DNA from: a virus
Virus record (IMG/VR): IMGVR_UViG_3300037189_010277
Location: 1-30,123 of that record
Direction: 5' to 3' (one strand)
Length of the DNA: 30,123 nt
Shown in pieces: positions 1 through 29,310 of this stretch. Numbering within the stretch: the stretch's first letter is position 1; the number at the start of each line of letters is the position of its first letter. Under the pieces are notes generated by a model that saw only the letters and a program-made list of their open reading frames with translations, was not told the DNA's origin and did no database searches. Position numbers and translations under genes: made by a program.

Positions 1-182
1 CATAAGCTAGACCATACGTCAACACCCTTTGAGCGTTTAAATCGCTTTTTTCTGTCCGCCCCTCCCCGTTTAAATCGCACCCCCCGCACCCTCTGAGCGC
101 GCCCCCTATCCGTCCGGGGGTAGAGCGCACCCCACAATGCCCCGTAGTGACACAGAGAAGCCCATACAGGCCTATAGAGGGG

Positions 183-200
183 AGGGGGTGCTATCCCCCT
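183..200 (+). other. GC hairpin in non-coding region
   Basis: AGGGGG at 183-188 and CCCCCT at 195-200 form a perfect 6-bp inverted repeat around a six-base loop. There is no T-tract after it, so it is not a typical terminator. Its function is unknown. Confidence 0.4.
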
Positions 201-246
201 AGCCAGAGGCCGGAAAAGCCTGTCCAGCGGCCTCCCTCGCGGTTTT

Positions 247-264
247 CCCCTGTCAGGGGTTTTT
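247..264 (+). terminator. Short terminator-like hairpin
   Basis: CCCCT at 247-251 pairs with AGGGG at 255-259 around a three-base loop, followed directly by five T (260-264). The shape is that of an intrinsic terminator, but the stem is only 5 bp. No gene is seen just upstream in the window, so it may end a transcript entering from the left or a small RNA. Confidence 0.35.
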
Positions 265-400
265 GCCGCCACCACTCGCCAAGGGGGGGAGATATTCGGC
301 CCTCGCCCGTCCGCTTGACACCTTGGAAGGGTTCCGGTTTCACCCCCGCGAATACTTGGTGCGCCCCTCTCACGTGTTCCGATTTAAACGCTGTCAGGGG
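250..400 (+). repeat. Direct repeat CTGTCAGGGG (two copies)
   Basis: The decamer CTGTCAGGGG occurs at 250-259 and again at 391-400. Each copy is followed by a short T-run and then a GCGG/GCCGCC sequence. The second copy lies two bases after the ATTTAAACG at 382-390. The range given spans both copies. Confidence 0.5.
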
Positions 401-656
401 AATTTTTCAGGGGTTGCGGCGAAAACGCCCGGAAACCGGGGGATAGTATTTGGCGCGAATAGTCATGCAAGTATTAGTGCAATGAATACAGTGCAAGCAT
501 TGCTTCGCTAGCAAATACAGACAAGCGCAAGTAAAGCCTAAGTAAACCCTCATTTCGAGAAAAACGGAAATTGCGCTACACGGCAAAGTCGGGGGTGCCC
601 CTTGTCTTTCTACCTCCCCGGCCTGATGGCGCTGTACGGCCTTCCTAGGGGCTTGG

Positions 657-672
657 CGGGGGTCCGCCCCCG
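657..672 (+). other. Strong GC hairpin with a TCCG loop
   Basis: CGGGGG at 657-662 and CCCCCG at 667-672 form a perfect 6-bp stem closing the tetraloop TCCG. It sits at the left edge of the C-rich tract. No T-tract follows, so termination is unlikely. Confidence 0.45.
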
Positions 673-860
673 GGCCGCTAGCGCATGGCCCGGTCTATGC
701 TAACCCCTTGTTCCATAGGTTTTTTCTATGGCCCCCCGCCCCCCGGTTCCGCCCCCTGCAACGGCCCCGGACTGTTGCGCGACGGCCCCGCCGCACCGGC
801 TCCGCCCCCCGCCCCCTCTCAGGCAAGCCCGCCCCCGCACCGCATCCGCCCCCCTCACGT
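661..860. repeat. C-rich tract with repeated CCGCCCCC units
   Basis: At least six copies of CCGCCCCC are spread through this stretch, near 664, 736, 747, 804, 829 and 846. The - strand therefore carries many runs of four to six G with short spacers, the arrangement needed for G-quadruplexes; the + strand could form i-motifs. I see no protein-coding signal in it. Confidence 0.55.
713..731 (+). repeat. Inverted repeat CCATAG/CTATGG around T6, sharing a 12-mer with 4266-4277
   Basis: CCATAG at 713-718 and CTATGG at 726-731 flank a loop of G plus six T. The right part, TTTTTTCTATGG at 720-731, recurs exactly at 4266-4277 in the other large non-coding gap, and partly at 46-57 as TTTTTTCTGTCC. A shared regulatory element is possible. 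Confidence 0.45.
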
Positions 861-1042
861 ATCAGGACAAGGCACACACACAGGACACAGAGAGGGACAC
901 AGAGACGCATATGCATTCCTGACAATCCTGTCTGAGAGAAACCGCATTCAATAGCAATCTGATATCAGGACATAGGAGAGCTATAGATAGGGATAATCCA
1001 CAGACAGAGAGTGAGGAGAGTAAGAGCACGCTATCAGACACA
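860..1042 (+). repeat. Repeated TATCAGGACA-type elements in a purine/CA-rich stretch
   Basis: TATCAGGACA occurs at 860-869 and 963-972, with a related TATCAGACACA at 1032-1042. The intervening DNA is rich in ACACAG and GACACAG units. The second copy overlaps the palindrome CTGATATCAG (959-968). Repeats of this kind suit protein binding near an origin or promoter, but nothing proves it. Confidence 0.35.
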
Positions 1043-1233
1043 TACAGGCATGAGGGTACGCACATGACAGCGCGTACAGACACAGAAGGCCAGCACACAG
1101 TGCAACAGCCGGTGATGTGACAGAGCGCAACGGTTCAGGACTATAGCCTTTGGTCCTCGCCACGGTCGCTGTCGTGGGACACCACCCCAACTTCCCCCAA
1201 AAAAGTTTTTGCCTTTTGCCTACCTTTGAGAGC

Positions 1234-1282
1234 GAATTGGCGTTTAAGGAAGATCGCCTTAACTCGGGCTAGTACCCAATTC
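1234..1282 (+). promoter_or_regulatory. Nested hairpin in the leader of the HNH gene
   Basis: GAATTGG at 1234-1240 pairs with CCAATTC at 1276-1282 (7 bp). It encloses a second perfect inverted repeat, TTAAGG at 1244-1249 with CCTTAA at 1257-1262. The structure ends nine bases before the SD CGGAGG at 1291-1296 of the GTG-started gene at 1305, so it would lie in that gene's 5' leader. It could be an RNA control element or a protein operator. The pairings are seen directly; the role is inferred. Confidence 0.45.
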
Positions 1283-1304
1283 TTACCAACCGGAGGTAGA
1301 AAAC

Positions 1305-1766
1305 GTGTCTTTTGAAATGCCTGAACATCATCAAAAATGGCTTGAGCAGCATCCCGAGCGGTCTGCGGAATGGCTGCGTGAGCGGCTGCGGGACGGGTTT
1401 GACGTGCATCATCTGGACGGGGATCACGGCAATAACACCCCGGACAACCTCGTCTTGATTGAGCATGGAGATCACATGCGGCTGCACGGGTTGAAGCTCG
1501 ACATGTCCAAGGCGCTGAAGAACCGACAGGCTTCTGAAAGGTTTGTTCGGGACACTGAAGACCCGGAAGCGATCTACGCGCTCAGGCGGTCGGGTGTGGA
1601 CTACGATGAGATCGACAAGCTGACGTATGTGTGGGGGTCATCTCGGCGGCGGCGCATGTTGCGGGCCAACGTGATTGCGTGGCGATACGCCAAAGCCAAC
1701 GAACTTCCCTACGAGCCGATCTGGAACATCCCCGGTTTTGACCCTCGCCGGAAGCGATTGAACTAG
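1305..1766 (+). CDS. HNH endonuclease family protein
   Basis: This 153-residue protein carries an HNH nuclease core at residues about 33-61: a VHHLDGDHGNNTPDNL motif (H35, H36, D38, H41, N43, N44, D47, N48) followed by LIEHGDHMRLH with H54, H57 and H61. In this family the histidines and asparagine hold a divalent metal and cut DNA. The C-terminal half (about 65-153) is basic, with an RRRR run near 114-117 suited to DNA binding. The start is GTG with the SD CGGAGG eight bases upstream; the in-frame ATG at codon 5 is less well placed. It is probably a free-standing homing or nicking nuclease of the phage. The family is clear from the motif, but the target is unknown. Confidence 0.8.
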   Translation: MSFEMPEHHQKWLEQHPERSAEWLRERLRDGFDVHHLDGDHGNNTPDNLVLIEHGDHMRLHGLKLDMSKALKNRQASERFVRDTEDPEAIYALRRSGVDYDEIDKLTYVWGSSRRRRMLRANVIAWRYAKANELPYEPIWNIPGFDPRRKRLN

Positions 1767-1826
1767 CTTGACCATTGGTGTGGGGGGTGTATTGCTAATG
1801 CGTTGTTAATTGTTTGGGAGGGCCTG

Positions 1827-2051
1827 ATGGCTCGTGGTCCGAAGGTTGAGACTGTTGAAGCTGAGGTTGAGGCTTCGTCGGTGGCTATGACGGTTGAGGA
1901 GGGTGCTGCGCGCGAGTTCAATTGCGTGCTGGGTCGTCGCGCGGTGTCTTCAGTCCATGAGTGCTTGGGCGGCAAGTGCATGGCGTGGCGGGTTGATGCC
2001 GTGGTTGAGGGTCGGCGCTACGGCTATTGCGGTCTTGCGGGCAAGCCATGA
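1827..2051 (+). CDS. Small Cys-rich phage protein
   Basis: This is a 74-residue protein with the SD GGGAGG at 1816-1821, which selects the ATG at 1827 over an upstream in-frame start. Its C-terminal half has four cysteines (C33, C46, C51, C68) in the pattern C-x12-C-x4-CMAWR-x13-GYCGL, which suggests a small metal-binding fold. I recall similar CMAWR...GYCGLA proteins from other phages, but no function for them. The N-terminus is rich in Val and Glu and has no recognisable domain. The stop overlaps the next start as ATGA. The call rests on a good SD, coding-like codon use and gene packing. Confidence 0.7.
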   Translation: MARGPKVETVEAEVEASSVAMTVEEGAAREFNCVLGRRAVSSVHECLGGKCMAWRVDAVVEGRRYGYCGLAGKP

Positions 2052-2512
2052 GGGCAAGGCTGCTGAAGACGACCGCGTTGGGCACGGGGCCGACGAAGCC
2101 CGGTAGTCCGTCTCAGATGATGATTGGTTGGACCGCGAAGACGGTTGAGAAGGAACAGGTGATGACGAAGCAGATCAAGCGCGTGCATGTGACGTGGATG
2201 GACAAGGTCGCGATTGGGCAGTTCCTGTCGGATGATCAGGTGCTGCTGAAGCGCAGCGACGGGACGTGTTCGTATCTGGGAGATCGCAGTGACAAGTCGG
2301 TTGCGGAGGTGATGACCGTTGCGCTGGGCAAGCCGGTGACGGAACACAACGTGGCGGCTGTGCGGAAGGATCGGTACGGGGTGCTGGCTGTTCTGGTTGC
2401 GCCCAAGCAGTTGACGATCAGGGAGCAGTTGCAGAACCTGTCCGCGCTTCTGGAACGGGTCTGTGACCGCGTTGATCACCTTGAGGCGCGCGTTCGTGAA
2501 CTGGAGGGATGA
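2048..2512 (+). CDS. Hypothetical protein with C-terminal coiled coil
   Basis: The frame is open for 154 codons from an ATGA overlap with the previous gene. A second start, ATG at 2162, has a much better SD (AGGA at 2151-2154) and would give 116 residues beginning MTKQIKRVHVTWMD; it may be the true start. The conserved-looking part has alternating beta-type segments (about 40-115 of the long form) and ends in a leucine/glutamate coiled coil, roughly residues 120-154, closing with VRELEG. No known domain is recognised. Codon use is GC3-rich like its neighbours. Certainty that it is a gene is good; certainty about the start is low. Confidence 0.65.
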   Translation: MRARLLKTTALGTGPTKPGSPSQMMIGWTAKTVEKEQVMTKQIKRVHVTWMDKVAIGQFLSDDQVLLKRSDGTCSYLGDRSDKSVAEVMTVALGKPVTEHNVAAVRKDRYGVLAVLVAPKQLTIREQLQNLSALLERVCDRVDHLEARVRELEG

Positions 2513-2513
2513 G

Positions 2514-2687
2514 ATGCTGACAGAGGGCGCGCACGAGGCGTTCAAGGAAGCGCAGCGTCGTCTTGCCGAGAAGGAACGCGCTGAACGGCTGTATCTGGTC
2601 TATGAGCGCGCCCTGATCCGCATTGCGGAAGGGTGCGACAACCCGGTGGAGTTTGCGATCAAGACCCTGATGGGGGCCGCGTCATGA
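2514..2687 (+). CDS. Small helical hypothetical protein
   Basis: This is a 57-residue protein starting one base after the previous stop, with the SD GGAGG at 2503-2507. An upstream in-frame start at 2463 would run deep into the preceding gene and has no SD. The sequence is highly charged and helical (AFKEAQRRLAEKERAERLY), like a short amphipathic helix pair, with no cysteines and no membrane segment. It sits in a run of small genes upstream of the winged-helix protein. Function unknown. Confidence 0.65.
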   Translation: MLTEGAHEAFKEAQRRLAEKERAERLYLVYERALIRIAEGCDNPVEFAIKTLMGAAS

Positions 2688-2697
2688 GGGATGGGAC

Positions 2698-3090
2698 ATG
2701 GAGTGTGAGCGGTGCGAGGAACTGCTGGAGCGCATCGCGTGGCTTGAGGAGGAACTGGGCTTGCGGGTGCGCGACGCCATCACCGAACGGGTGATGAAGG
2801 CGTTTCGGCTGACACCCGCAGAAGCGTGGTTCGTCATCGCGCTCTGGTCCGCCAAGGGCCGTCCGGTGGAAAGGCACTGGCTCTTGGACAACAAGCCCAG
2901 CGTCCGCGAGCGGGTGTCGGAATACCCCTCCCTCAACATGCTGCGCGTCTACATCAACAAGGTGCGCGGCCAACTGGGCAAGGACGCCATCAGGTCGGTG
3001 TGGGGGATCGGCTATGCCATGACCCCCATCGGCGTCGAACGGGTCAACAAGGTCATAGAACAGGAAATCCCCAATGGTCATCAAGGTTGA
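2698..3090 (+). CDS. Winged-helix DNA-binding protein, OmpR/Trans_reg_C type without a receiver
   Basis: This is a 130-residue protein. Residues 1-25 carry a CERC pair and a short Glu/Leu coiled coil. Residues about 38-109 match the OmpR-family winged helix: LTPAEAWFVIALW corresponds to the first helix, LNMLRVYINKVRGQLG (about 79-94) to the recognition helix, and IRSVWGIGYAM (98-108) to the wing, normally IRTVRGVGY. No phospho-receiver domain is present, so it is not a normal response regulator and probably dimerises through the coiled coil. It could control phage late genes or be a small DNA-binding structural protein. The SD is GAGGG at 2686-2690. The 3' end overlaps the next gene by 17 bases. 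The fold call is fairly sure; the target is unknown. Confidence 0.7.
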   Translation: MECERCEELLERIAWLEEELGLRVRDAITERVMKAFRLTPAEAWFVIALWSAKGRPVERHWLLDNKPSVRERVSEYPSLNMLRVYINKVRGQLGKDAIRSVWGIGYAMTPIGVERVNKVIEQEIPNGHQG

Positions 3091-3364
3091 AGGCGTGACG
3101 CCGGTTCACGAGAGGGAAGTGGTTGTGCCCGAAGCGGCTCCCGTCTGGGGGCCGATCATCAGACTGAAAGCCCTTCAACTGGCTGTGGTCGGCAACAACG
3201 CCAACCTCAATGCCGATACGATTGTGGTCAGAGCCAAGGTCTTTGAGGAGTACATGCTGAACGGGATCGACAGTCCCGCTGCGCGCATACCCTCAATGCA
3301 AGAGCAGATCACGACCGCGTTCCTCAATCTCACAGGGAACTTGGACGGCACAACTGGATTGTGA
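3074..3364 (+). CDS. Hypothetical protein
   Basis: This is a 96-residue protein overlapping the winged-helix gene, with a weak SD AGGAAA near 3061. The sequence is mixed: a beta-rich first third with many valines (VVVPEAAPVWGPIIRLK), then a Lys/Glu-containing helix and a polar tail. I recognise no domain, signal peptide or membrane segment. It is the last ordinary-size gene before the tiny basic peptides and is separated from the first of them by 30 bases. Function unknown. Confidence 0.6.
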   Translation: MVIKVEGVTPVHEREVVVPEAAPVWGPIIRLKALQLAVVGNNANLNADTIVVRAKVFEEYMLNGIDSPAARIPSMQEQITTAFLNLTGNLDGTTGL

Positions 3365-3394
3365 TATTGTTGATCTCTGTGATTGGAGGGCAAA

Positions 3395-3463
3395 ATGGCT
3401 GCAAAAGGTAGAACCGTCCACGGGTCGAGGCCTTCGCCCTCCACCCGCAAGCGGAGAAAGTAA
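3395..3463 (+). CDS. Tiny basic peptide, 22 residues
   Basis: The frame starts at ATG 3395 after a strong SD, GGAGG at 3385-3389, and ends at TAA 3461-3463. The peptide has eight Arg/Lys, one His and no acidic residue, and closes with STRKRRK. It has no hydrophobic core, so it should be unfolded alone and bind nucleic acid or an acidic partner. It is the first of three similar peptides in 300 bases. Very short basic virion peptides that condense DNA are known in other viruses (adenovirus protein mu is an example), but any likeness here is by composition only. Confidence 0.55.
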   Translation: MAAKGRTVHGSRPSPSTRKRRK

Positions 3464-3468
3464 CAACC

Positions 3469-3543
3469 ATGATCACCAAGAGGTCCTGTGGGGGTCGTGG
3501 CGGCAATCTGGGCCGCAGAAGTGTCAAGCGCTCGCGCTCTTGA
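3469..3543 (+). CDS. Tiny basic peptide, 24 residues
   Basis: The ATG at 3469 lies five bases after the previous stop and the frame ends at TGA 3541-3543. It has eight Arg/Lys, one Cys, five Gly and no acidic residue, with GRGG and GRRSVKRSRS segments like RNA-binding RGG/SR sequence. No SD is well spaced (GGAG at 3453-3456 is 12 bases away), so translation would depend on coupling to the upstream peptide. This is the least certain of the set. Confidence 0.42.
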   Translation: MITKRSCGGRGGNLGRRSVKRSRS

Positions 3544-3588
3544 CTGTCGTTCAACAACGCCCGCTGGGGCTGATCTAGGAGATTGAAT

Positions 3589-3690
3589 ATGGCTGGTAAG
3601 GCACCGGCGACCACGGGTCGCTCGTCTGGTTATCGTGGTGGCACCGCTGTTGGTGGTCGCGCCTCTGCTCGTCGCAAGACGCGCGCCTAA
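3589..3690 (+). CDS. Tiny basic Gly/Arg-rich peptide, 33 residues
   Basis: The ATG at 3589 follows a good SD, AGGAG at 3577-3581, and the frame ends at TAA 3688-3690. It has eight Arg/Lys and no acidic residue, a Gly/Ser/Thr-rich centre (GRSSGYRGGTAVGGR) and a basic end (ASARRKTRA). It is closely followed by a terminator-like hairpin. Composition and position pair it with the two peptides before it. A DNA-binding virion or regulatory peptide is a guess from charge alone. Confidence 0.58.
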   Translation: MAGKAPATTGRSSGYRGGTAVGGRASARRKTRA

Positions 3691-3699
3691 TACCTACGG

Positions 3700-3724
3700 C
3701 CCTTTGCCCCCAAGGGTTCTTTTT
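3700..3724 (+). terminator. Weak intrinsic terminator after the basic peptides
   Basis: CCCTT at 3700-3704 pairs with AAGGG at 3712-3716 around a seven-base loop, followed by TTCTTTTT at 3717-3724. The stem is short, so it would be a partial terminator reducing read-through into the gene at 3752. Confidence 0.5.
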
Positions 3725-3751
3725 ACAACCCCTTAGCCTCTGGAGGCATCA

Positions 3752-4129
3752 ATGGCCGCTGCGCCCGTTACTGGTTCCCTGTCGTCGCTGTACACCACTG
3801 CCTCGACCGGCATTTCGTCTAGCTTCTCCCCTTCGACCGCTCCGGGCGGCACCGCCGCCGTTGTGTCGAACCCCATCACCCTGAACCTGACCGTTGATAC
3901 CCTTCGCGGTTCGTTCGTGGGCACCCTCGTTGTCCAGCGTTCCGTGGACGGTGGTACTAGCTGGGGCGCGGTGATCTTCCCCGCTGCCACCTCGCAGAAC
4001 TCCACCGCGTTCTCCGGTACGTCCTTTGGTCTGTCCGTGCAGCTTACCGAAACGCAATCTGGCGCGCTCTACCGCGTGATTGTTTCGGCCTACACGTCGG
4101 GCACCGCGTACTACTTCTTCGGTCAGTAA
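3752..4129 (+). CDS. Small beta-sandwich phage protein (decoration or tail-like)
   Basis: This is a 125-residue protein with the SD GGAGG at 3742-3746. After a Ser/Thr/Ala-rich first 40 residues it shows a beta-strand pattern I associate with small phage surface proteins: GSFVGTLVVQRSVDGGTSW at about 51-69, then SGALYRVIVSAYTSGTAYYFFGQ at the C-terminus. Short proteins with this SGTW/QRSxDGG...YR...SGT pattern are common among phage structural genes, usually without an assigned role. A related pattern is in the gene at 29678, at the other end of this structural block. It stands alone between a weak upstream and a strong downstream terminator, so it may be highly expressed. Confidence 0.7.
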   Translation: MAAAPVTGSLSSLYTTASTGISSSFSPSTAPGGTAAVVSNPITLNLTVDTLRGSFVGTLVVQRSVDGGTSWGAVIFPAATSQNSTAFSGTSFGLSVQLTETQSGALYRVIVSAYTSGTAYYFFGQ

Positions 4130-4174
4130 GCTCCTCCCCGGAGACGCTCCGGGCCGCAACCCAGAGCGACGAAG

Positions 4175-4203
4175 CCCCTCGGCCCTCAAGCCGGGGGGTT
4201 TTT
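4175..4203 (+). terminator. Strong intrinsic terminator
   Basis: CCCCTCGGC at 4175-4183 pairs with GCCGGGGGG at 4190-4198 (9 bp with one G-U pair) around CCTCAA, followed by TTTTT at 4199-4203. This is a textbook rho-independent terminator and closes the transcription unit ending with the gene at 3752-4129. Confidence 0.88.
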
Positions 4204-4349
4204 GTTTGACCCAACCGCACAGTTTAAAAATTTTGGCAAAACCCCCGGCAATTTAAACGCCATGTTTTTTTCTATGGGGATTGCGCTTACCAATGATTTT
4301 ATACATGGTCCTGTCCCGTCTTGATGGTTGATTTGGCCCCCCGCAAACC
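4204..4349 (+). promoter_or_regulatory. Intergenic gap with an ATTTAAAC octamer and TTTTTTCTATGG element
   Basis: The gap between the strong terminator and the gene at 4350 is the natural place for a promoter serving the packaging genes. It holds ATTTAAACGC at 4251-4260 and, six bases later, a T-run with CTATGG (4265-4277). The 12-mer TTTTTTCTATGG is also found at 720-731. A TATACAT at about 4299-4305 could be a -10 box, but no -35 lies at the right distance. Promoter function is inference from position and repeated elements. Confidence 0.35.
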
Positions 4350-4967
4350 ATGCCCGACTTGATCCTGAAATGCGGCCAGACTGTCGTCATCGACGACGAA
4401 GACTATGATTTTGTTCAGGAAAAAACGTGGTACGTCCGAGACCGGCCTGATCGCTCCCGCCGGATCATCCGTGACGAGTGGGCGGGGGGGCGCATGTTTC
4501 GCATCTTTTTGCACCGCGCAATCGCCATCCGCGTCCGCCCTGATCTGATCCCATACGTCGCAAATTTGAAGGTCAAAGCCCGCAACGGAGACTACACCGA
4601 TGTCCGACGTGCCAATCTGGAAATCTATCTTTCAAAAAGGGACGGGGGAGACCCACGGCGAAAGCCCGAAGGATACATCCACAAGAAGACCCCCAAGCGC
4701 CTCCGAGGAACCATCAGCATTGACAGCCTCCCCACCGACAAATCTCCCCTCTGGGGAGGAGGAATCGCCAAGGTCAGAACCCACAAGACCCCCGGAAAGT
4801 CCGGTCGGCGGTGGGTCAGGACCTACGCTGGACGAGTTATTGTTGGAGCAGATGGACTTAGCCGTCGTGGCCTTCTCCGAGATCATGCGCGACAAGACGA
4901 TGGTGGTGAACGAGAAGGGGGAACTGAAGCCTCAGTACACCTTTGGGGAGAAGATGAAGGCGGCTGA
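4350..4967 (+). CDS. Degenerate AP2/HNH homing-endonuclease-like protein
   Basis: The frame is open for 205 codons. Residues 11-29 (VVIDDEDYDFVQEKTWYV) and 52-91 (FLHRAIAI ... NGDYTDVRRANLE) follow the layout of phage HNH/AP2-type homing endonucleases, where one expects VDDEDY..W, LHRLI, and VDHINGD..DNRRANLR. The catalytic DH of that last motif is missing: KARNGDYTDVRRANLE stands in its place, so it is probably inactive or a DNA-binding remnant. There is no clear SD. From 4600 it overlaps the next gene in another frame. By hand count, GC3 in this frame is about 68% to 4825 and then falls to about 24%, so the last 47 or so codons are probably not selected for protein. Confidence 0.55.
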   Translation: MPDLILKCGQTVVIDDEDYDFVQEKTWYVRDRPDRSRRIIRDEWAGGRMFRIFLHRAIAIRVRPDLIPYVANLKVKARNGDYTDVRRANLEIYLSKRDGGDPRRKPEGYIHKKTPKRLRGTISIDSLPTDKSPLWGGGIAKVRTHKTPGKSGRRWVRTYAGRVIVGADGLSRRGLLRDHARQDDGGEREGGTEASVHLWGEDEGG

Positions 4968-5271
4968 ATTTGTGCGCGATTGGGTCGTGCGCCGTCGCAA
5001 GCTCCAGCCTGTCAGCCTTGATGACGACGCCCCCAACATCACCGCTCTGCGTCAGGCCATTCAGGAAGAAATGATGAAGACCCTTGAGCGCGAGCGCGTC
5101 GTGCGTCTGCCGCCCAAGAAGAACGGTCGTCCCACCAAGGAGGAAGCCGCCAAGAAGAAGGAGGCCTTGGAGGCTGCGGCAAAAGCCCAGTATGAGGCCG
5201 AACAGCATGACGACGTGCTACAATCGACCGGCGACGACGACGAACTCAAGCGCGCACTGAGGGGCAAATGA
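4600..5271 (+). CDS. Putative terminase small subunit (start uncertain)
   Basis: The frame gives 223 residues. Residues 1-75 are Ser/Pro/Glu-rich and disordered. The structured part begins near TLDELLLEQMDLAVVAFSEI (76-95) and is followed by helical segments, a GRPTKEEAAKKKE basic helix near 177-190 and an acidic tail. Small terminases bind the packaging site and feed DNA to the large subunit; this call rests on its place four genes upstream of the large terminase and its helical basic make-up, not on a recognised motif. The ATG at 4600 has GGAG nine bases upstream. GC3 in this frame is only about 55% before 4825 and about 87% after it, so a start at ATG 4852 (140 residues) is a serious alternative. 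The stop overlaps the next start as ATGA. Confidence 0.55.
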   Translation: MSDVPIWKSIFQKGTGETHGESPKDTSTRRPPSASEEPSALTASPPTNLPSGEEESPRSEPTRPPESPVGGGSGPTLDELLLEQMDLAVVAFSEIMRDKTMVVNEKGELKPQYTFGEKMKAAEFVRDWVVRRRKLQPVSLDDDAPNITALRQAIQEEMMKTLERERVVRLPPKKNGRPTKEEAAKKKEALEAAAKAQYEAEQHDDVLQSTGDDDELKRALRGK

Positions 5272-7816: not shown

Positions 7817-7817
7817 C

Positions 7818-8372
7818 ATGCCCCGCTACAAGTACGGCACCTACCACTGCGACGAGTGCGACCTGACGTTTAAATCGTTCCGCGAGCTTGATGGCCCCAT
7901 GCCTGACTGCCCGATCTGCGTGCCCGATAACACGCCGTTTGAGGCCAAGGCCCCGGCGCTGCTGACCAACAAGGCCAAGGCCATCGACATTGCCCAGAAG
8001 GTTGCGGAGGAGAGCTTCGGCCTGACGGACATGAACGACAACAACCGCCCCGGTGACATTGTCGCCAAAGGCCCTGCGCCGATCCAGACCGCAGAGGCAG
8101 AGGCCATCACGCGCGAGATGATCCAAGCGGGCATGGGCACGCCAGAGGTTGGACCGGAACTGAAGCAATATGTTGAAGGTTTCTTTGGCGCGGCAACCCC
8201 ACAAAGCCTTGCCGCCCAAGCTCAACAAGCTGCGCAACAGGCCGCACCGCAAGCCGCAGCGGAGACCCGTGCTATGGGCTTGGACCCCATCGCGCTTCTG
8301 CACAAGTCAAAAGGCGGACATGGTGGTATAAACAAGATCGTGCCGATCAATAAACCCAAGGCAACCACATGA
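7818..8372 (+). CDS. Zinc-ribbon protein between terminase and portal
   Basis: The start is ATG 7818, one base after the large terminase stop, giving 184 residues; the longer frame from 7722 runs through the end of the terminase gene. Residues 10-34 form an FmdB-like zinc ribbon: YHCDECDLTF with C11 and C14, and DCPIC with C31 and C34. The rest is helical, then an Ala/Gln-rich segment (about 132-154), and ends in a basic Gly/Lys tail. Zinc-ribbon proteins at this place occur in some podovirus genomes; a head or packaging accessory role is an inference from position. The stop overlaps the portal start as ATGA. Confidence 0.7.
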   Translation: MPRYKYGTYHCDECDLTFKSFRELDGPMPDCPICVPDNTPFEAKAPALLTNKAKAIDIAQKVAEESFGLTDMNDNNRPGDIVAKGPAPIQTAEAEAITREMIQAGMGTPEVGPELKQYVEGFFGAATPQSLAAQAQQAAQQAAPQAAAETRAMGLDPIALLHKSKGGHGGINKIVPINKPKATT

Positions 8373-10297: not shown

Positions 10298-10319
10298 CTC
10301 ACAACTTTAGGAACCTCTA

Positions 10320-13816: not shown

Positions 13817-14752
13817 ATGGCGCTGAACCAGTATCTGATCGACACGGCGTTGTTGCTGAACGACCCCAGCAATCTGTTTTTCTCTCAGGGCACGCTGACC
13901 AACTTCATCAACAAGGCGCGCAACCGGATTGCTGAAGACACGCAGTGTGTGCGCGTCATTCTGCCCTCTCAGGGCACGATCAAGTCGATTGCAGTGGCAA
14001 ATGGTGGCGCGGGATACACTTCTGCGCCGACTGTGACGATCAGCTACCCGGACGCGCTGGGTGTGGTCGTACAGGCCACTGCGACCGCTGTGATCACCTC
14101 TGGTCAGGTCACGGCCATCAATGTGACCAACCCAACCACCAACTCCGGTTACGTCCTGACGCCTACGGTGACGCTTACGGGTGGTGGCTACGTCACCGCA
14201 GCAACCGTTGGGGCAATCACGGTCACGCCGTATGTGACGACCGTGGTCAATCAGGAAACCTACCCGATTGCCAACTACAACGGCGCGGTGCAGCAGTACG
14301 CTCCCGGCGCGCAGAACATCATTGGCATCCAGAGCGTGTCGGTGTCGTGGGGGTCATTTAAACCCACCCTTCAGAACGTGTCGTGGACGACGTTTCAGGC
14401 GCGCTACCGCTCGTACAACATCGGCCAGCAGAACTACCCCAGCGTATGGTCACGCTATGGGCGCGGTCAGGCCGCAGTGATCTATCTGTGGCCGATCCCG
14501 GCTGTGGTGAGCCAGATGGACCTCGACACCTACTGTCAGGTGATCCCTCTGGTGAATGACAGCACCGTGGAGGCGATCCCTGAGCCGTGGACCAACGCGG
14601 TGAAGTACTACGCGGCGTATCTGGCTTATCTGAACGCGCAGCGACGCGACGACGCCATGTTCATGCGTCAGTTGTACGTTGACCACCTGATCTCGAATGG
14701 CGTGGCTGATACGCCGTCTATGTCCCCCAGCGCCTATGATGGAGATTGGTGA
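13817..14752 (+). CDS. Tail adaptor (gp11/gp4-like) with an inserted GYTSAP module
   Basis: This 311-residue protein has the frame of a podovirus head-tail adaptor. Residues 1-48 ([24 protein letters not shown]) match the N-terminal helix pair of such adaptors, and the C-terminal half includes [23 protein letters not shown] (223-245) and [31 protein letters not shown] (257-287), a common adaptor ending. Residues about 50-145 are a foreign-looking beta insert with [14 protein letters not shown] (63-76) and a second unit ending [13 protein letters not shown]. Usual adaptors lack this and are near 200 residues. It would dock under the portal ring, with the insert projecting outward. Confidence 0.78.
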
Positions 14753-15529: not shown

Positions 15530-17821
15530 ATGCCGTTACCGCGCGCGGGGAATAATCCAGAAACACCGATTGAAGAATGGGTGTTTGAGGACTTTGGGAC
15601 ACTGAACACCAAGGTCACCCGCCCTGCGGTTGGTGAAACGGAGTTCTACTGGACGCAGAACCTGATGCCCATCGCGACGGGGCGTCTGCGGACCCTGTAC
15701 GCTGAAGGGGCCACTATCTACACCGCGTCTGGCTCTACGGTCGTCTACATCTACAGCTACATCATTCAAGGGACGGCCTACTGGGCGGTCTTTCTGTCTG
15801 ACGGGAGCGCCGTTCAGGTGCTCGCGACTTCGCCGTACACGACCACGACGATTGCGGCATCTGGGACGTTCTACAGTTCGTCTACGCCCACCCTGCTCCC
15901 CGCGTGTGCGCAATTCCAGAACAAGTACCTCGCTATCGTCAACACCCTCAACACCAGCAACTACTGGCTGTGGGATGGAACGCGCCTATACGGCAGCACC
16001 ACGACTTCGGGGACGACCACGACCTCTCTTAGCCCTGACTACACGATCCTGAATGGTGGCACCGGGTACACGTCAAACCCTACGGTCACGGTTTACGGCG
16101 GCGGCGGTACGGCGACGGCCACCGCAAAGGTCAAGAACGGGTCGGTCACCGAGCTTACGATTTCTCCCGGTAGCGGGTTCGCGCTGAACGATCAGCCGAT
16201 CATCTATTTCTCCGGTGGTGGATCGGACAATCAGGCCGCAGCCGTGCCCATTGTGAGCACGAGTACCGGCTCTGTGAGCGCGATCACCATTCTGGCGGGT
16301 GGGTCAGGCTACACAACCGCCAGCGCCATCAGCTTCAGCGGAGGCGGCGGCACTGGCGCTACCGCCACCATTACCGGACTGACCAACACAGCCGGTGGGG
16401 CCATTACCTCTATCGCCATCACGCAGGGCGGATCGGGTTACACCTCCTCTCCCACCATTGCCGTGACTGTCGGAACAGGCGCTCAGTTCAACGTCCAGAT
16501 ATCGTCGGGCGTCATTACAGGCATGACTCTAATCTCTGGCGGCTCAGGGTATTTCGGTGACCCTCAAGTCACCATCGTGGGGGCCGGTACTGGGGCTGTG
16601 GTGAACGCCAAGCTCAGTGGAACGGGCACGATCACGGGCTTTGACATCATTTCACCGGGAAAAAACTACACTTCGGCCACTTCAGCGGTGATTTCCGGCG
16701 GCAACAAGTCCGCTTCAGCCACGATTTCGCTCATGCCCATCGGCGTGAGCGGTACAACGGTCGAAACGTACCAAAACCGCGTCTGGATCGCCAACGGCAT
16801 CAATTTTTACGCCACAGGGGCAAACACGGTGGCGAACTTCGCCACGTCAACTGGCGGCGTTTTGGCTCAAATCACCGATAACAGCCTCAGAAGCCAGATT
16901 ACGCGCTTGGCGCAGTCTTCGGGCTATCTGTACATTTTTGGCGATTCTTCGATCACGGTGCTCACAAACGTCCAAACGTCCACAACGGGCGTAACGACGT
17001 ACAATTTGTCGAATGTGGACCCACAGGTGGGCACGTCGTGGCGCGATTGTGTGACCGCTTTTGGCCGAGCGCTCGTTTTTGCCAACCCTTCAGGGGTCTA
17101 CGCGCTCTACGGCGGGTCCGCAGAGAAGGTTTCGCCCATGTTGGACGGCCTTTTCCTCAAGGCGAACTGGACGAGCACCATTCCGACCGCCGCCGTGGCG
17201 ACGATCTACAACATCCGCGTCTTCATGATGAACTTTACCACCGTCAACCCTTACACGGGTGCTACGGTCACGCTTATGGCTATGTGGGACGGCCAGAAGT
17301 GGTTCATCGGGACGCAGAACAAGCAGCCGAACTTCATCCAGACCCAAGAGATCAATTCGGTCATTCAGGCGTGGGGCACGGATGGCACAAACCTGTACCC
17401 CATGTACCAAACCGCGTCCTCGACCTTGCAGAAGGTGTTCCAGACCAAAATCCGCAAGGCCCCGAACTACACCTCATTTAAACGCGCTCTGCGCCTGTAC
17501 TTCGTGGCGACGAACAACGGTGCAGACAGCAGTCCGTCCTTCAGTCTGTCCGCTGACACTGACGCCAACTATGGCGTACCGATCAATCTGACGCTCCAGC
17601 AGTTGGCGCTAAACTTCGTGAACAACTCCAACGGCGCGATCCAGTTCCAATCGAACTCAAACCAGAACATCAACTTCTTCTCGTCGCCGCCTGTGAACAT
17701 CATCGGTACTGCGGTCAGCACCTATGGCCGGATGATCGGGTACACGCTAACGACAACCGCGTCAGATTTGGATATAATCAGCTTTACAACCCAATTTGGC
17801 GAGTTCGCGCCCTTCGGGTAG
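15530..17821 (+). CDS. Tail nozzle / tubular tail protein B-like, with six GSGYT repeats
   Basis: This 763-residue protein matches T7 gp12-type nozzle proteins in length (about 794) and place after the adaptor. Residues 1-165 and about 405-763 form the beta-propeller-like body, with AQFQNKYLAIVNTLNTSNYWLWDG (127-150), LVFANPSGVYALYGGSAEKVSPMLDGLF and the terminal YGRMIGYTLTTTASDLDI...GEFAPFG. Between them, residues about 171-404 are six tandem repeats of 33-44 residues marked by GGTGYTSNPTV, GSGFALNDQPI, GSGYTTASAI, GSGYTSSPTI, GSGYFGDPQV and GKNYTSATSA. They would form a side domain on the nozzle. The SD AGGTGATGG lies just before ATG 15530. Confidence 0.82.
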   Translation: MPLPRAGNNPETPIEEWVFEDFGTLNTKVTRPAVGETEFYWTQNLMPIATGRLRTLYAEGATIYTASGSTVVYIYSYIIQGTAYWAVFLSDGSAVQVLATSPYTTTTIAASGTFYSSSTPTLLPACAQFQNKYLAIVNTLNTSNYWLWDGTRLYGSTTTSGTTTTSLSPDYTILNGGTGYTSNPTVTVYGGGGTATATAKVKNGSVTELTISPGSGFALNDQPIIYFSGGGSDNQAAAVPIVSTSTGSVSAITILAGGSGYTTASAISFSGGGGTGATATITGLTNTAGGAITSIAITQGGSGYTSSPTIAVTVGTGAQFNVQISSGVITGMTLISGGSGYFGDPQVTIVGAGTGAVVNAKLSGTGTITGFDIISPGKNYTSATSAVISGGNKSASATISLMPIGVSGTTVETYQNRVWIANGINFYATGANTVANFATSTGGVLAQITDNSLRSQITRLAQSSGYLYIFGDSSITVLTNVQTSTTGVTTYNLSNVDPQVGTSWRDCVTAFGRALVFANPSGVYALYGGSAEKVSPMLDGLFLKANWTSTIPTAAVATIYNIRVFMMNFTTVNPYTGATVTLMAMWDGQKWFIGTQNKQPNFIQTQEINSVIQAWGTDGTNLYPMYQTASSTLQKVFQTKIRKAPNYTSFKRALRLYFVATNNGADSSPSFSLSADTDANYGVPINLTLQQLALNFVNNSNGAIQFQSNSNQNINFFSSPPVNIIGTAVSTYGRMIGYTLTTTASDLDIISFTTQFGEFAPFG

Positions 17822-22158: not shown

Positions 22159-22169
22159 AGGGAAACATC

Positions 22170-22499: not shown

Positions 22500-22510
22500 G
22501 GGAGACCTCT

Positions 22511-22660: not shown

Positions 22661-23055
22661 TCAGACCGGCTACTGCGGGCGATTTCGACTACATCTTTGA
22701 GATCGCCCGCAGCGCTTACCCAGAGTTCAACGAAGAAACATCTCGCCTGTGGGGTTTAAATGCCCTCCAGAAGCCCTCTGTGCTCATTGCCGTAGGTGAG
22801 AGAGGGTTTGGCGTTTGTGGGGTCTCAGCGCCCTTCTACGCGCCTCACAAGCCCAAGGCTGTCATGCTGTTTTTGGCCTCGACAGAACGCGCTGGTTATG
22901 AACCGTGCGCGATCCTCCGCTACATGATAAAGTGGTCTCAAGAGAGAGGCGCTGTGTCGTTTCACTTTGGTGAAGACACCGGGGTCAATCTCGCACCACT
23001 CGCCAAGCGCGTCAGGGCCACCAAGGACAGGGACTCCTACGCGATCAAGTTCTAG
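22657..23055 (+). CDS. GNAT acetyltransferase-like internal virion protein (T7 gp13-like place)
   Basis: This 132-residue protein starts at GTG 22657 in GTGA overlap. The N-terminus IRPATAGDFDYIFEIARSAYPEF is a standard GNAT start, and the order strand, helix, strand pair, then GYEPCAILRYMIKWSQERGA (about 83-102) matches the acetyl-CoA loop and helix of the fold, though the R/Q-x-x-G-x-G/A loop is not clear. In T7-type phages a GNAT-like protein (gp13) precedes the ejection proteins, and this gene has the same place. It may be structural rather than enzymatic. Confidence 0.68.
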   Translation: MIRPATAGDFDYIFEIARSAYPEFNEETSRLWGLNALQKPSVLIAVGERGFGVCGVSAPFYAPHKPKAVMLFLASTERAGYEPCAILRYMIKWSQERGAVSFHFGEDTGVNLAPLAKRVRATKDRDSYAIKF

Positions 23056-23064
23056 GAGAAGCCC

Positions 23065-23688
23065 GTGGGTCGTAGTGTTGATGAGATTGCGTCGGTGTTG
23101 GGCGATATCGCCAGCATCGTGACGCTGAACCCGACCTTCGCGATGGCGGCAAATGCCGGTGCGGCTGCGGACGCCAAGATTGGCGGTCGAGACAAGGACG
23201 CGCTGGGTTTTGCGCTTCAATCCATTGCTGCGCCTGTGGCGTCGGCTGTGGGCGGTGCGGTTGGCGGTGGTCTTGAAAAGGCCATGCTTCCCGCCGCGTC
23301 TGGCGAAACAACCGCTGACTTTCTTGCCTCTGGTGGGGCGGGCTTTGGTCAAGGTTTCAACGCCGTTCAGAATGCCACTCGACTTGGCTCCACCGTGGGT
23401 GGGCTTGCCGGAAGGGAGGCCGCAAAGGGCGTGAAGGACACGCTTGAGCCGGGTCTGGCAAAGATGTTGGGTGTCACTCAAGGCCCGACGCCGACCGCAG
23501 CACCCAGCAGCACTCTGACAGCGCCCAAGACCGGCACAGGCGGTGGTGCTGGACCGTCCACGGGTCCGGGTGGACTTGATGTTCAGGGCGGCACCGCGCC
23601 GCAGATTTACCCATACGTCAAGTCGTCGCCCGGTGGCTCCGCGCCTCAAGGCCAGCAGATGCAGCAACAACAGCCGAAGGGGATTTAA
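23065..23688 (+). CDS. Putative internal virion (ejection) protein, gp14-like
   Basis: This 207-residue protein starts at GTG 23065 with AGGAGAAG upstream. Residues about 10-135 are small-residue helices (SIAAPVASAVGGAVGGGLEKAML; GSTVGGLAGREAAKGVKDTL) of the kind that can insert in membranes. The last 70 residues are a disordered Pro/Gly/Thr/Gln tail ending in QQQPKGI. A T7 gp14-like role, forming the outer-membrane part of the ejection conduit, is inferred from place, size and composition. Its TAA stop lies within an ATTTAAAC octamer (23683-23690). Confidence 0.6.
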   Translation: MGRSVDEIASVLGDIASIVTLNPTFAMAANAGAAADAKIGGRDKDALGFALQSIAAPVASAVGGAVGGGLEKAMLPAASGETTADFLASGGAGFGQGFNAVQNATRLGSTVGGLAGREAAKGVKDTLEPGLAKMLGVTQGPTPTAAPSSTLTAPKTGTGGGAGPSTGPGGLDVQGGTAPQIYPYVKSSPGGSAPQGQQMQQQQPKGI

Positions 23689-23690
23689 AC

Positions 23691-24851: not shown

Positions 24852-24852
24852 C

Positions 24853-26367
24853 GTGGCAGTGGCTGATCCAGCAAGCGCAGCGGCACGTCTGGCGAGGCGT
24901 CCGCCTACCCTGAGCAGCATCATGGCTCAGACGCAGGGTCTGATGACCCCCGGCAAGGATGAGGTTGCCGCTCAGAAGGAAGTTCAGGCGCGCGAGGCAG
25001 AGCAATCCGCCGCGCTTGAGCGCAACCGCTCAGAGCGCCAGCGCATCACGGGTGCAGAGGCCGAACGCGCTGAGAAGGCCGAAGCTGCCCTTCCTGATCT
25101 GCCCACCGTGCCGAAGGCGGAAAAGGAAGAAATTCCGCCTGACCACAACCCCATGCAAGCGATGCAGAAGTTCATGCCCATGCTGATCATGCTGGGCGGG
25201 GCCGCGAACAAGCATCTGGGCATGGCCGCGCTCAAGTCGGCTGTGGGGGCCATGAAGGGTCAGAAGTCTGGTGATCTGGAGGCTCAGGAAGCGGCCCACC
25301 AGAAGTGGCTGGACGACACCAAGGCGGCGATGGAAGCCTATGAGCTTCAGTCCAAGAACTACCAGAACGTCTTGGAAAAGTTCAAGATCACTGACGAGTC
25401 AGCCAAGAACCGCGTCAACGCGCAGCTTCAGGCGCTTGCCGCTGACAATGGGGACTTTGTGACCCGCACGGCACTCGCCAAAGGCAACTATCAGGAACTG
25501 TTTGCGGCCCGCACGGCCCAGCAGAACGCCCTGAAAGAGATGCACTCCATGCTGACGGCAGAGCAGCAGTTGGCGAACGAGCGTTCGCGTATTGGCCTTG
25601 AGAGCAAGCGGCTTCAAGAGGAAGAACGATACCACAAGGCTGAAGAAGAATTTAAACGCCTTGGCCTCGACCCGGTCAAGGGCACTTACAACCGCGCGCT
25701 TGAAGATGGGAAGACTCCCGAAGAAGCAGCCAAGATTGCCGGTAAGGTCGCCCTGTCTGTCCACCCGGAGATTAAGACCCGTCTGGCAAAGGACATTGAG
25801 CGGTCTATCGCCATCAACCCGACCTACAAGGCGGAAATGAAGGTGATTGAAGGCGCAGACACGGTAGATACTATAAAGAAAAAGTTTCTGGAAGCCCGTG
25901 CCAAGGGACAGAACATCAGCGCACAAGATCAGGGTCTAATTCTCGACCAATTTATTGTGGCGGCAACGGGTCGTTCTCCCACTTACCAGCAGTTGAACCT
26001 TCAAAAGAACTACAGCGGTGCTTCGGCAAAGGTTGCTGAAATGCAACAATATCTTGGGAAGGGTGGTGTCCTTGGTCCAGATCAGGTTAAAAATCTGCTT
26101 GATGACTTTGACCTCTTGAGGACCAAGGCCGAGGCCAACATTGAGAAAATCCGCCAAGGCGCTGCGGAGGAATTGGCTATGGGCGAGATGAGTATCATGC
26201 CCCCCGATTACCCCTTGGCGAGAGGAGAGTCGGGCGGGTATCCGACGCCGCCGCAAGAATATGTAGACATGCTCCTCAAGAGTCCTGACGACATCCACAA
26301 GCAAGCGTTTGACTTCCGATTTGGTGCGGGTGCGGCGGACGCCGTTCTGAGGGAACACAAGAAGTGA
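24853..26367 (+). CDS. Putative internal virion (ejection) protein, gp15-like
   Basis: The start chosen is GTG 24853, one base after the previous stop, with AAGGAG eight bases away, giving 504 residues; a TTG at 24835 would lie inside the previous gene. Residues 36-80 form a charged coiled coil. Residues about 101-138 hold a Met-rich hydrophobic patch (MQAMQKFMPMLIMLGGAANKHLGM), and a long helical region follows with QQLANERSRIGLESKRLQEEERYHKAEEEF. Its size and place before a very large internal protein match T7 gp15. An ATTTAAAC octamer at 25650-25657 lies within the coding sequence as part of Glu-Phe-Lys-Arg. Confidence 0.62.
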   Translation: MAVADPASAAARLARRPPTLSSIMAQTQGLMTPGKDEVAAQKEVQAREAEQSAALERNRSERQRITGAEAERAEKAEAALPDLPTVPKAEKEEIPPDHNPMQAMQKFMPMLIMLGGAANKHLGMAALKSAVGAMKGQKSGDLEAQEAAHQKWLDDTKAAMEAYELQSKNYQNVLEKFKITDESAKNRVNAQLQALAADNGDFVTRTALAKGNYQELFAARTAQQNALKEMHSMLTAEQQLANERSRIGLESKRLQEEERYHKAEEEFKRLGLDPVKGTYNRALEDGKTPEEAAKIAGKVALSVHPEIKTRLAKDIERSIAINPTYKAEMKVIEGADTVDTIKKKFLEARAKGQNISAQDQGLILDQFIVAATGRSPTYQQLNLQKNYSGASAKVAEMQQYLGKGGVLGPDQVKNLLDDFDLLRTKAEANIEKIRQGAAEELAMGEMSIMPPDYPLARGESGGYPTPPQEYVDMLLKSPDDIHKQAFDFRFGAGAADAVLREHKK

Positions 26368-29285
26368 CCACCGATCCGTTTGCCGATCTTGACGCGAAGC
26401 ACGGCATTTCCCCGAAAGCTCGGGGGGCAAGCGGTGACCCGTTTGGCGATCTTGACGCCAAATACGGCATCGGTGCCGCCAGAAAGCCATCTACCACCGT
26501 TGCGCCGAAGACCGCCGAAAAGCCTCTTACTCCGGGTCACGCCGTTTCTGCGTTTCACGAGGTTGAACGGGCTGTGGCTCCTACAGCCGCTGGTCTGGCG
26601 GGAGCGGCTGCGGGCGCTGAGGCGGTTGCTCCACTGGCGGCAGCGTCTTTGGCGATTCCTGTAGCTGGAGAGTTCGCTGCGCCCTTGATTGAAGCGGGTG
26701 GTGCCTTGGCCGGTGGCATGGGCATGGGTCTTGGTGCCGAAGGTCTTCTGTCGGGCGCGTCTCATCTGGTGTCTGAAGCCACTTCCAAAATGCCGCCTTG
26801 GGCGGCGAACTTCGTGGAAGGGGCGCAGAGTTTGATCGGTGGATCGGAGCGGCAGACCGAAGCCGAACGTCGCCGTCATCCGCATCTGACAGAAGCGGCG
26901 GGGTTTGTTCCGGCTCTGGCGACGGGCCGGATTGATCTGAAGAAGGGCGCGAAACTGCTGCCCCATGCGATTGGGGGCGGCATTGCTGGCGTCACCGATC
27001 TCGCGCAGCAGATCGCGTCCGGTAAGCCGTTTGACCCAACTGAATTTGCGATCAACGTGGCGGGTGGTGCTGCTACGGGCAAGCAGAACAAGATGGTCGG
27101 TGATCGGATCACCAAGCCCATTGAGGAGGGCGTCCGCGCTGTTGCCTCAAGAGACCCCAAGGTCGCCGCGTACCACGCCACCAAGGCCAAGTCTGCCGCC
27201 ATGACACCGCAACAGCGGAGCGACCAGAATGCCCGCTACAAGGCGGCGAGGGCGGCACTGGACGTGCTTGATCCAGCGACAACGAGGTTCATGTTGGCCG
27301 AAGCCAAAAGGCTTGGGGTTGATGCGGTCACGCTTTTGGGCGCGGGTGGAGAGCACTTCCAGAACTTTGTGCAAGAGGTCACGGGGGCGAACATTGAGGC
27401 CAAGAACCGTTTGATCGCGGCCCGTGAACACTACAACGACCACCTTCCCGCACGGCTTGGTGGCCGTCTGGACGCGGAGAAACCGTTTAAGAACTTGCCC
27501 GCGAGCGAGAGAGCCAAGGCCAACCGCAAATTCAACGCCCAGAAGGCGTCGAAGCCGTTTTATCTGTCCGTTGACACCATCCCCGTTCAGTTGAGCGAGA
27601 ACATTGGTGAAATGGCGCGCCAGCGTCAGCGCGGCACACCCGGCCCCGAAGCGGGACAACAGGCGCTGGACGACGCCATTCAGACCGCTACCGAATTTGC
27701 TCAGGCGGGAGACACAGCGGCGCAGCGTCACGCTGTGGAGCTTCAATCTCTGAAAGATTGGCACGATGCTCGCCGCAGCGCGGAAAAAGAGGTCGAGCTT
27801 CACGACACCAATATCGCCAAAGAGAACGAACGACAGAAAAAGGCTCACGCCAAAAGGGTTGAGAATGCGCAGAAGGCGCACGACCGCCTCGTGGCAAGTG
27901 AAAAGGCCGAATACGAAAGCGCAGTAGACAAGCGCGAAAAAAGATACCGCAAACAGGTTGCCGATTGGGAGGAAAACCAACGGAAGCTACGCGCGAAGGG
28001 TGAGCCAAAGCCGCCCATCATGCGACCAAAGCCTGTCCCAAAGCCTGTGAAGGAACCCGGCCCCAACCCTACAGTGGTGGGCAAGGAAACCGTTGAACAG
28101 GCGAAAGCGCGGCACCAGCGCGAGGTCGAAGTCGCCAACTTCAAGAAAGAGCAAAACCGCGTTGCTCTTGAGAAGTGGGAAAGAGAGGCGGCGGAAAAGC
28201 AGAGGGCGCATCAGGAAGCGGTTGATGAGTACCGCAAGGGCTTTACGAACAAGCCTGAACCGCCCCCTGAAATCGCAAAGCCGCCTCAGCGGACCTATAC
28301 GCCTGAGCCACCGCCGCCTGAACTGGTTGTGGGGGGCTTTGTACCCGCTGATGTGGGCGATCCCCCGATCATGTCTGTTGGGTCTCTGGACATGTGGCAT
28401 CGCGCTTTGCGCGAGGAGGCCGCTGCTCAAAAGAAGAAAGGCTTGCAGGATTCGGCCACGGCTGTGGCGAATGCTCTTGATGACTTCATCAAAGGTCATG
28501 GCGGTCTAGACCTTCAGCGCGCACGGGCGGTCTATGAAGACCACATGGTCCGCGCTGAGATGGCCGAAACCGCTGAGGGAATTGCCGAGCGCAATCCTGA
28601 CGAGTTCAAGGCCCTCGTGGACGGTGTCAAAGCCGATCCCGTTAACGGAATTGAAGGCACACCACCTCTCAGCGGACCTCAAAAGCTCGAGCTTACTCAA
28701 AAGATCATTGGTGATTTGAGGGAGAAGGCCACCGCGAACGAGGCGGGCGTCAAGGCGTTCCTCCGTCTGCTGCGTCCCGGCCTGAACGTGACTGAGAACC
28801 TCAAGACCCTCATGGGCACCGATAAGGTGGAGGACTTGGCCGCAACTCTCGACCTGATGGAACGGGAGATGAAGGCCCGCGAAAAGGCCGCGAGCGGCAA
28901 GCTGGAGAGCAAGCAGAAGGGTGCTGAAGCTGGCCCTCTGCGGTGGGGCGCTCGCTCCTTGAGCTTCTTGGGTGGCGGATTCAAAGGCGTGGCTGCGGAG
29001 TTGGGTGCGGAGAAGTTGTTTGACCACATCCGCGATCAGTTCAGGTTGAACGACCAAGACACACTCCAGATCACGCGCTGGGCCACAAACGAGAGCGACC
29101 CGGCTGCGGCCCTGACGCAGATGGAGCAAGCGGTCAAAACGGGTCGTATACCAAATACACTGCCCAAAGACGTCCGCGACATCATTGTGCGGATGGCGGG
29201 CACCAGCGCGCTCGCCAAGTCCTACGGATCAAACAACAGCGCGCTTGATCAGGCCCTGCCTCAAGTGCCTGTTGCCCCTCGGTAG
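26364..29285 (+). CDS. Large putative internal virion protein (gp16-like place)
   Basis: This 973-residue protein starts at GTG 26364 in GTGA overlap. The N-terminus has a tandem duplication, DPFADLDAKHGI (4-15) and DPFGDLDAKYGI (25-36). Residues about 60-145 are Ala/Gly-rich, membrane-active-looking helices. A highly charged coiled coil lies at about 455-550, interrupted and followed by Pro-rich linkers (PPIMRPKPVPKPVKEPGPNP; PEPPPEIAKPP). The C-terminal third is helical with a short Gly-rich patch (WGARSLSFLGGGFKG). T7 gp16 has an N-terminal transglycosylase; I see no such motif here. Function as the long ejection-conduit protein is inferred from order and size. Confidence 0.66.
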   Translation: MTTDPFADLDAKHGISPKARGASGDPFGDLDAKYGIGAARKPSTTVAPKTAEKPLTPGHAVSAFHEVERAVAPTAAGLAGAAAGAEAVAPLAAASLAIPVAGEFAAPLIEAGGALAGGMGMGLGAEGLLSGASHLVSEATSKMPPWAANFVEGAQSLIGGSERQTEAERRRHPHLTEAAGFVPALATGRIDLKKGAKLLPHAIGGGIAGVTDLAQQIASGKPFDPTEFAINVAGGAATGKQNKMVGDRITKPIEEGVRAVASRDPKVAAYHATKAKSAAMTPQQRSDQNARYKAARAALDVLDPATTRFMLAEAKRLGVDAVTLLGAGGEHFQNFVQEVTGANIEAKNRLIAAREHYNDHLPARLGGRLDAEKPFKNLPASERAKANRKFNAQKASKPFYLSVDTIPVQLSENIGEMARQRQRGTPGPEAGQQALDDAIQTATEFAQAGDTAAQRHAVELQSLKDWHDARRSAEKEVELHDTNIAKENERQKKAHAKRVENAQKAHDRLVASEKAEYESAVDKREKRYRKQVADWEENQRKLRAKGEPKPPIMRPKPVPKPVKEPGPNPTVVGKETVEQAKARHQREVEVANFKKEQNRVALEKWEREAAEKQRAHQEAVDEYRKGFTNKPEPPPEIAKPPQRTYTPEPPPPELVVGGFVPADVGDPPIMSVGSLDMWHRALREEAAAQKKKGLQDSATAVANALDDFIKGHGGLDLQRARAVYEDHMVRAEMAETAEGIAERNPDEFKALVDGVKADPVNGIEGTPPLSGPQKLELTQKIIGDLREKATANEAGVKAFLRLLRPGLNVTENLKTLMGTDKVEDLAATLDLMEREMKAREKAASGKLESKQKGAEAGPLRWGARSLSFLGGGFKGVAAELGAEKLFDHIRDQFRLNDQDTLQITRWATNESDPAAALTQMEQAVKTGRIPNTLPKDVRDIIVRMAGTSALAKSYGSNNSALDQALPQVPVAPR

Positions 29286-29310
29286 CGATTTAAACGGGTC
29301 TGCTGTATGA

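Follow-up and report, generated by a model that had tools for sequence, protein, structure and literature searches.

The window analysed here, a virus record of 30,123 bases (G000) to whose full length all window counts below refer, has a GC content of 59.3% and belongs to a tailed phage. It encodes a terminase (5960-7816) and a major head protein (11523-12533), has a long gene in the portal position (8369-10045), and carries its structural genes on the right. Positions 1-1300 are non-coding and C-rich, with a GC skew of -0.13 in the first kb and a repeated CTGTCAGGGG; this part is possibly an origin or control region. Two ORFs, at 4350-4967 and 4600-5271, share about 370 bases but are read in different frames. 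Each is about 86% identical in the related contigs L010 and L011, and together they could be a true pair of overlapping genes or else a single gene linked by a frameshift.

The feature under study is the octamer GTTTAAAT/ATTTAAAC. The initial annotation had placed 11 of the 12 TTTAAA of the window inside this word and had read nine of these 11 copies as CGTTTAAAT; our recount returned the same two figures and agreed at every coordinate (Table 1). The single TTTAAA outside the octamer, at position 4222, reads GTTTAAAA. Four copies are on the plus strand and seven on the minus strand. In the non-coding left region, the sites at 35 and 68 form a 12-bp direct repeat, CGTTTAAATCGC, with a spacing of 33 bp, and those at 382 and 35 form a 20-nt inverted repeat that is 85% complementary.

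Table 1. Octamer sites and genes of candidate readers in the window.
Feature	Position	Strand	Context or basis
GTTTAAAT site	35..42	+	non-coding left region
GTTTAAAT site	68..75	+	non-coding left region
GTTTAAAT site	382..389	-	non-coding left region
GTTTAAAT site	4251..4258	-	upstream of gene at 4350
GTTTAAAT site	7868..7875	+	within gene 7722-8372, T-F-K-S
GTTTAAAT site	14356..14363	-	within gene 13817-14752, S-F-K-P
GTTTAAAT site	17476..17483	-	within gene 15530-17821, S-F-K-R
GTTTAAAT site	22754..22761	+	within gene 22657-23055, G-L-N, rare Leu codon TTA
GTTTAAAT site	23683..23690	-	gene junction 23688/23691
GTTTAAAT site	25650..25657	-	within gene 24835-26367, E-F-K-R
GTTTAAAT site	29288..29295	-	directly past stop of gene 26364-29285
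Candidate reader 1: HNH_3 endonuclease gene, 153 aa	1305..1766	+	clade distribution
Candidate reader 2: 130-aa OmpR-type winged helix (PF00486) with N-terminal helical stretch	2698..3090	+	

The expectation, roughly put at well under one copy in the initial annotation, is 0.07 under a second-order Markov model, against 11 observed. Dinucleotide shuffles give 0.23 copies, and 11 was not attained in any of 100 shuffles. Corrected for the testing of all octamers, P is about 1e-16, and GTTTAAAT provides the strongest 8-mer, 9-mer and 10-mer of the window. The count against a codon-shuffled background that the annotation had suggested was run on the window genes and gave 0.087 expected sites for five observed. 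An origin by chance, by codon bias or as a mutational or insertion artefact has in its favour only that the word was chosen post hoc, and we consider it negligible in view of these figures. Also, the word is carried by independent contigs gathered without its use, which refutes this reading, and point substitutions rather than insertions gave rise to the sites, so that a mobile octamer insertion was rejected.

The octamer is restricted to one clade of freshwater phages. Relatives were gathered by protein similarity, the octamer playing no part in their selection, and the word was present in the related contigs L009, L010 (three copies vs. 0.005 expected), L011, L012, L030, and L031 (five vs. 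0.03); a further contig, L028, is 99.96% identical to the window. In the early-region contig L184, which was reached via the primase of a sister phage (71% identity), all six TTTAAA are in the octamer, with 0.04 expected. Its octamers and its distance to the sister indicate that L184 is probably a member of the octamer clade. The octamer contigs group together in the tree of the portal protein (8369-10045; support 99/96) and in that of TerL (81/87), and both trees provide supporting evidence for a single origin of the word.

In about 92 kb from the sister lineages G004, G029, and G003 (capsid protein 93-94% identical), the last two of which overlap in part, TTTAAA does not occur. As 1.8 would be expected in this length, the absence is not significant, and avoidance of TTTAAA in the sisters was rejected. 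So was a different word doing the same job there, since contiguous and gapped scans of the sister genomes found none of comparable strength. A search of 2.9 million viral contigs for the paired CGTTTAAATC returned 58 matches, almost all of them in AT-rich coding DNA. The word occurs only twice in the 87.5 kb of the GC-rich contig L144, which carries no related genes, and it is absent from the three phages whose winged-helix protein is nearest. The RecT of the octamer clade was rejected as a marker, as 78 further RecT relatives showed no enrichment. Repeats were also noted in two contigs. In contig 3300010397_000043 (L188-L192; 87.5 kb), a non-coding region has two GTTTAAAT that are separated by 20 bp, and there are repeated words such as ACCAGTGGTA (eight copies vs. 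0.18 expected). A related phage contig has 42 copies of the 12-bp tandem repeat GAGCCCCGACCT at one of its ends (L078:1-507).

Pooled sequence of the octamer clade (75 kb) contains 27 exact copies against 0.13 expected. In the same 75 kb all one-mismatch variants (24/24) are at background, and the palindromic look-alikes ATTTAAAT (no copy) and GTTTAAAC (one copy) are not enriched. The flanks also show a preference: C precedes the word in 19 of 23 cases and A follows it in none of the 23. Inside genes, the initial annotation had described an override of codon habit, with Phe-Lys written TTT AAA and a rare Leu TTA at 22754. Four genic sites are indeed written in this way, and the site at 22754 reads TTA AAT, TTA being used for 6 of 598 Leu codons. 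The window genes offer 18 synonymous opportunities for the octamer, of which 5 are used; seven look-alike words have 72 such opportunities, and none is taken (P = 2e-4).

The sister phages allow these codons to be compared directly. T-F-K-S at 7868, which G004 codes as ACG TTC AAG TCG, is ACG TTT AAA TCG in the clade, D-L-N of the primase is GAT TTA AAC in the clade and GAC CTG AAC in the sister, and S-F-K-R at 17476 has TTT AAA in the clade where the sister reads AGC TTC AAA CGA; for the S-F-K-P at 14356, the sisters have S-M-K-P. Where the residues are the same, codon choice is bent to accommodate the octamer. The octamer is exact, asymmetric and selected at the DNA level, and the selected recognition site that the initial annotation had proposed is supported by independent clade contigs, mismatch intolerance, synonymous recoding and conservation. 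It is presumably read by a protein, which the phage itself probably encodes. Three other roles were considered and rejected: a frameshift slippery site (T TTA AAC), as the frames do not fit and TTT AAA is what stands at four of the five genic sites; a promoter, as positions 1-5000 hold no sigma-70-like match and orientation is mixed; and an RNA element, as an Rfam search gave none.

Conservation of the sites between relatives, another test put forward at the outset, held in part. The sites at 7868 (L009, L010, L031), 14356 (L030, L031) and 17476 (L031) are kept exactly in close relatives, but L012, a more distant one, lacks the site at 7868. In the region aligned with L031, three of three sites are perfectly kept, against 25% for a random same-frame octamer. 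At the 4251 locus, L010 and L011 carry the word in the opposite orientation, and sites absent from the window are present in L009/L031 at window position 8806 and in L012 at 8867. Despite this turnover, density is similar among contigs, at about one site per 2-3 kb, and gaps between the window sites are more even than random (P = 0.02, with the left cluster merged to one). Selection thus seems to act on the number of sites rather than on their place.

As first counted, six of the 11 window copies are intergenic or at gene junctions, in about 10% of the window sequence (P = 4e-4). Such an excess would be expected if the octamers were dispersed operators or stoperators, to which a phage DNA-binding protein binds and silences transcription, as in the cluster A mycobacteriophages, whose stoperators resemble the octamer in density and asymmetry (PMC9283540, PMC6550527). 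The putative binder would be the winged-helix protein of Table 1, a YdaS/Cro-like protein of L184, or an unseen repressor elsewhere in the genome. The winged-helix protein is present in both clades (about 46% identity), its recognition helix differs between the octamer clade and the sisters, and among solved chains PmrA/BasR is closest. The YdaS/Cro-like protein (100 aa; a match below the curated cut-off) is encoded beside the exonuclease gene and is also found in both clades, with 51% identity. However, the sisters, which have homologues of both DNA-binding proteins, have no comparable word; the divergent HTH/exo region of L184 has no site; and no phage repressor was found among the proteins scanned, which cover the early region of the octamer clade only in part.

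The cluster A stoperators likewise occur in many dispersed asymmetric copies, often in short intergenic gaps, but they are 13 bp long, somewhat variable and oriented with transcription, and their repressor is known (PMC9283540, PMC6550527), whereas the octamer is an invariant 8 bp in mixed orientation. Read on the coding strand, the sites of the late region are ATTTAAAC in about 11 cases and GTTTAAAT in four, and those in the exo/RecT operon of L184 have the opposite orientation, so that orientation is inconsistent relative to transcription. Beside the intergenic copies, synonymous opportunities are heavily used in mid-gene, within structural genes. Stoperators would therefore explain the intergenic excess, but not the exactness with its zero mismatch tolerance, the mixed orientation or the in-gene sites, and we regard operators as a serious but doubtful explanation. 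The C1 operators of phage P1 are asymmetric, scattered genome-wide and in both orientations; they share these traits with the octamer and differ from it in being longer, degenerate and linked to promoters, with a known repressor.

We favour, tentatively and at rather less than even chance, the reading of the octamer as a landmark for a DNA-processing enzyme, taken as a class. Such an enzyme would have to find the octamer at many places along the genome, so that number and coverage would matter more than position. Such exactness is commonly seen with enzymes and DNA motors, but seldom with repressor operators. Together, the exactness, the asymmetry and the much-used synonymous opportunities in mid-gene point to a landmark needed in number genome-wide, and it is on exactness, asymmetry and in-gene use that we prefer a landmark to ordinary operators. 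What counts against it is the intergenic location of about half of the sites, for which regulators would account too.

In one version of the landmark, a phage-encoded site-specific nickase or endonuclease would read the octamer, the best suspect being the HNH gene at 1305-1766. As the octamer is present in one clade and lacking in the sisters, some of which come from the same sample series, a comparison of gene content can be used to look for the reader. The HNH_3 gene is present in both octamer contigs that cover the locus (the window and L012) and absent from both sister lineages that cover it (G004/L021 and L014), and its distribution matches that of the octamer where checkable. The AlphaFold model of the protein was poor (mean pLDDT 59) and was left unused, and a PDB sequence search returned spurious antibody matches only. 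A correlation of two octamer contigs against two sister lineages and a poor model both count against this version, which taken alone we hold to be rather unlikely. Other readers may exist in the early region of the octamer clade, because this region is only partly covered.

The closest published anatomy is that of the localized nicks of phage tf, the phiKMV-like phages and T5, where a near-exact asymmetric word of 8-9 bp is likewise used in one lineage (PMC3517423). In the 46 kb of phage tf, a near-exact 9-mer marks 14 nick sites, while three further sequences that differ from it by one substitution are not nicked (PMC3517423). Nick words of this type recur about 10-15 times per 40-50 kb, and in tf at about one per 3 kb, to be compared with 11 octamers in 30 kb with no variants enriched; they occupy similar positions in relatives, and most of their one-substitution neighbours are unused, as with the octamer. 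The nick words are all on one strand, with nicks demonstrated by experiment, whereas the octamer is on both (4+/7-) and is known from sequence alone. This difference in strandedness counts against a nick reading. If the octamer is a nick word, it would provide a further lineage, with both strands marked, for work on what phage nicks do, a question still unsolved.

The second version of the landmark is a Chi-like mark of self, in which the octamer would direct a host nuclease of RecBCD/AddAB type from degradation to recombination and its copies would protect the phage. None of these roles is proven; we rank a clade-specific reader of HNH nickase type slightly ahead of the Chi-like one, which we consider unlikely. 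An exact asymmetric octamer spread across coding and non-coding DNA would suit it, and Chi is over-represented in lambdoid phages (PMC3784561). For most Proteobacteria no Chi word is known, and Alphaproteobacteria depend on an AddBC-type enzyme (PMC8022716); a Chi-like octamer would supply a word for a bacterial group without a known one. Site orientation also tends to change from the early arc to the late one. The early arc has seven plus and no minus sites, and the best split fits 15 of 17 sites, the arcs lying on different contigs whose joint order is taken from sister G004. With the split chosen freely, however, this change does not reach significance (permutation P 0.06, coin-flip 0.13).

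The word itself is atypical of Chi. Known Chi words are rich in G, whereas the octamer is AT-dominated and near-palindromic. Furthermore, the phage encodes its own exonuclease and RecT. Chi GCTGGTGG in lambdoid phages without a RecBCD inhibitor is likewise exact, asymmetric, selected and flexible in position, but the enrichment of the octamer is far stronger than the 2-3 fold excess of Chi in these phages (PMC3784561), and the sampled bacterial genomes show none. Against a reversed control, CGTTTAAATCG was not in excess in 289 genomes of the class of an alphaproteobacterial MAG nor in 151 of the class of a betaproteobacterial MAG, and the best candidates, rechecked with CGTTTAAAT, were near the control too. 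A motif spread over the host genome is unsupported in these 440 genomes, although the sampled classes may not include that of the host. Of the closest relatives of the winged-helix protein for which a host is named, most are from phages of Brevundimonas, a hint, and only a hint, of an alphaproteobacterial host.

Modification of the octamer by a phage or host methyltransferase, with methylation marking the DNA or gating packaging or replication, would agree with a non-degenerate exact recognition, which is typical of methyltransferases. It gives by itself no reason for multiplied sites, and no methyltransferase was found among the proteins scanned; we judge it very improbable.

Dispersed exact words are rare and informative, as Chi, KOPS, nick words and stoperators each revealed a distinct DNA-reading machine. 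KOPS, a near-exact asymmetric octamer read by the winged-helix domains of the DNA motor FtsK, resembles the present word in length, exactness and asymmetry, but is chromosomal with a strong strand polarity, and no FtsK-like motor was found in the phage. It is possible, though we would not put it higher, that the clade acquired a previously undescribed genome-marking system, lacking in its nearest relatives, in which selection on intergenic DNA and synonymous codons would hold a new exact octamer at a set density; the octamer would be read by a phage-encoded enzyme, or would be a first Chi-like word for a non-enteric proteobacterial host.

Some observations on other genes of these phages were also made. 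The RecT-family proteins of L184:1198-2082 and L182:268-1239 (the latter from the sister clade) are 28% identical, beside exonucleases that are 64% identical; between the sister clades, the recombinase has been swapped. A pooled scan of sister and more distant relatives (L085, L092, L094-L096) contained a Mom-like DNA modification protein, seen once, and a DNA invertase. Finally, L184:6511-8088 encodes a protein with an ADP-ribosyltransferase polyvalent domain (PF18760), and the N-terminal part of this protein is common to the sister phages.
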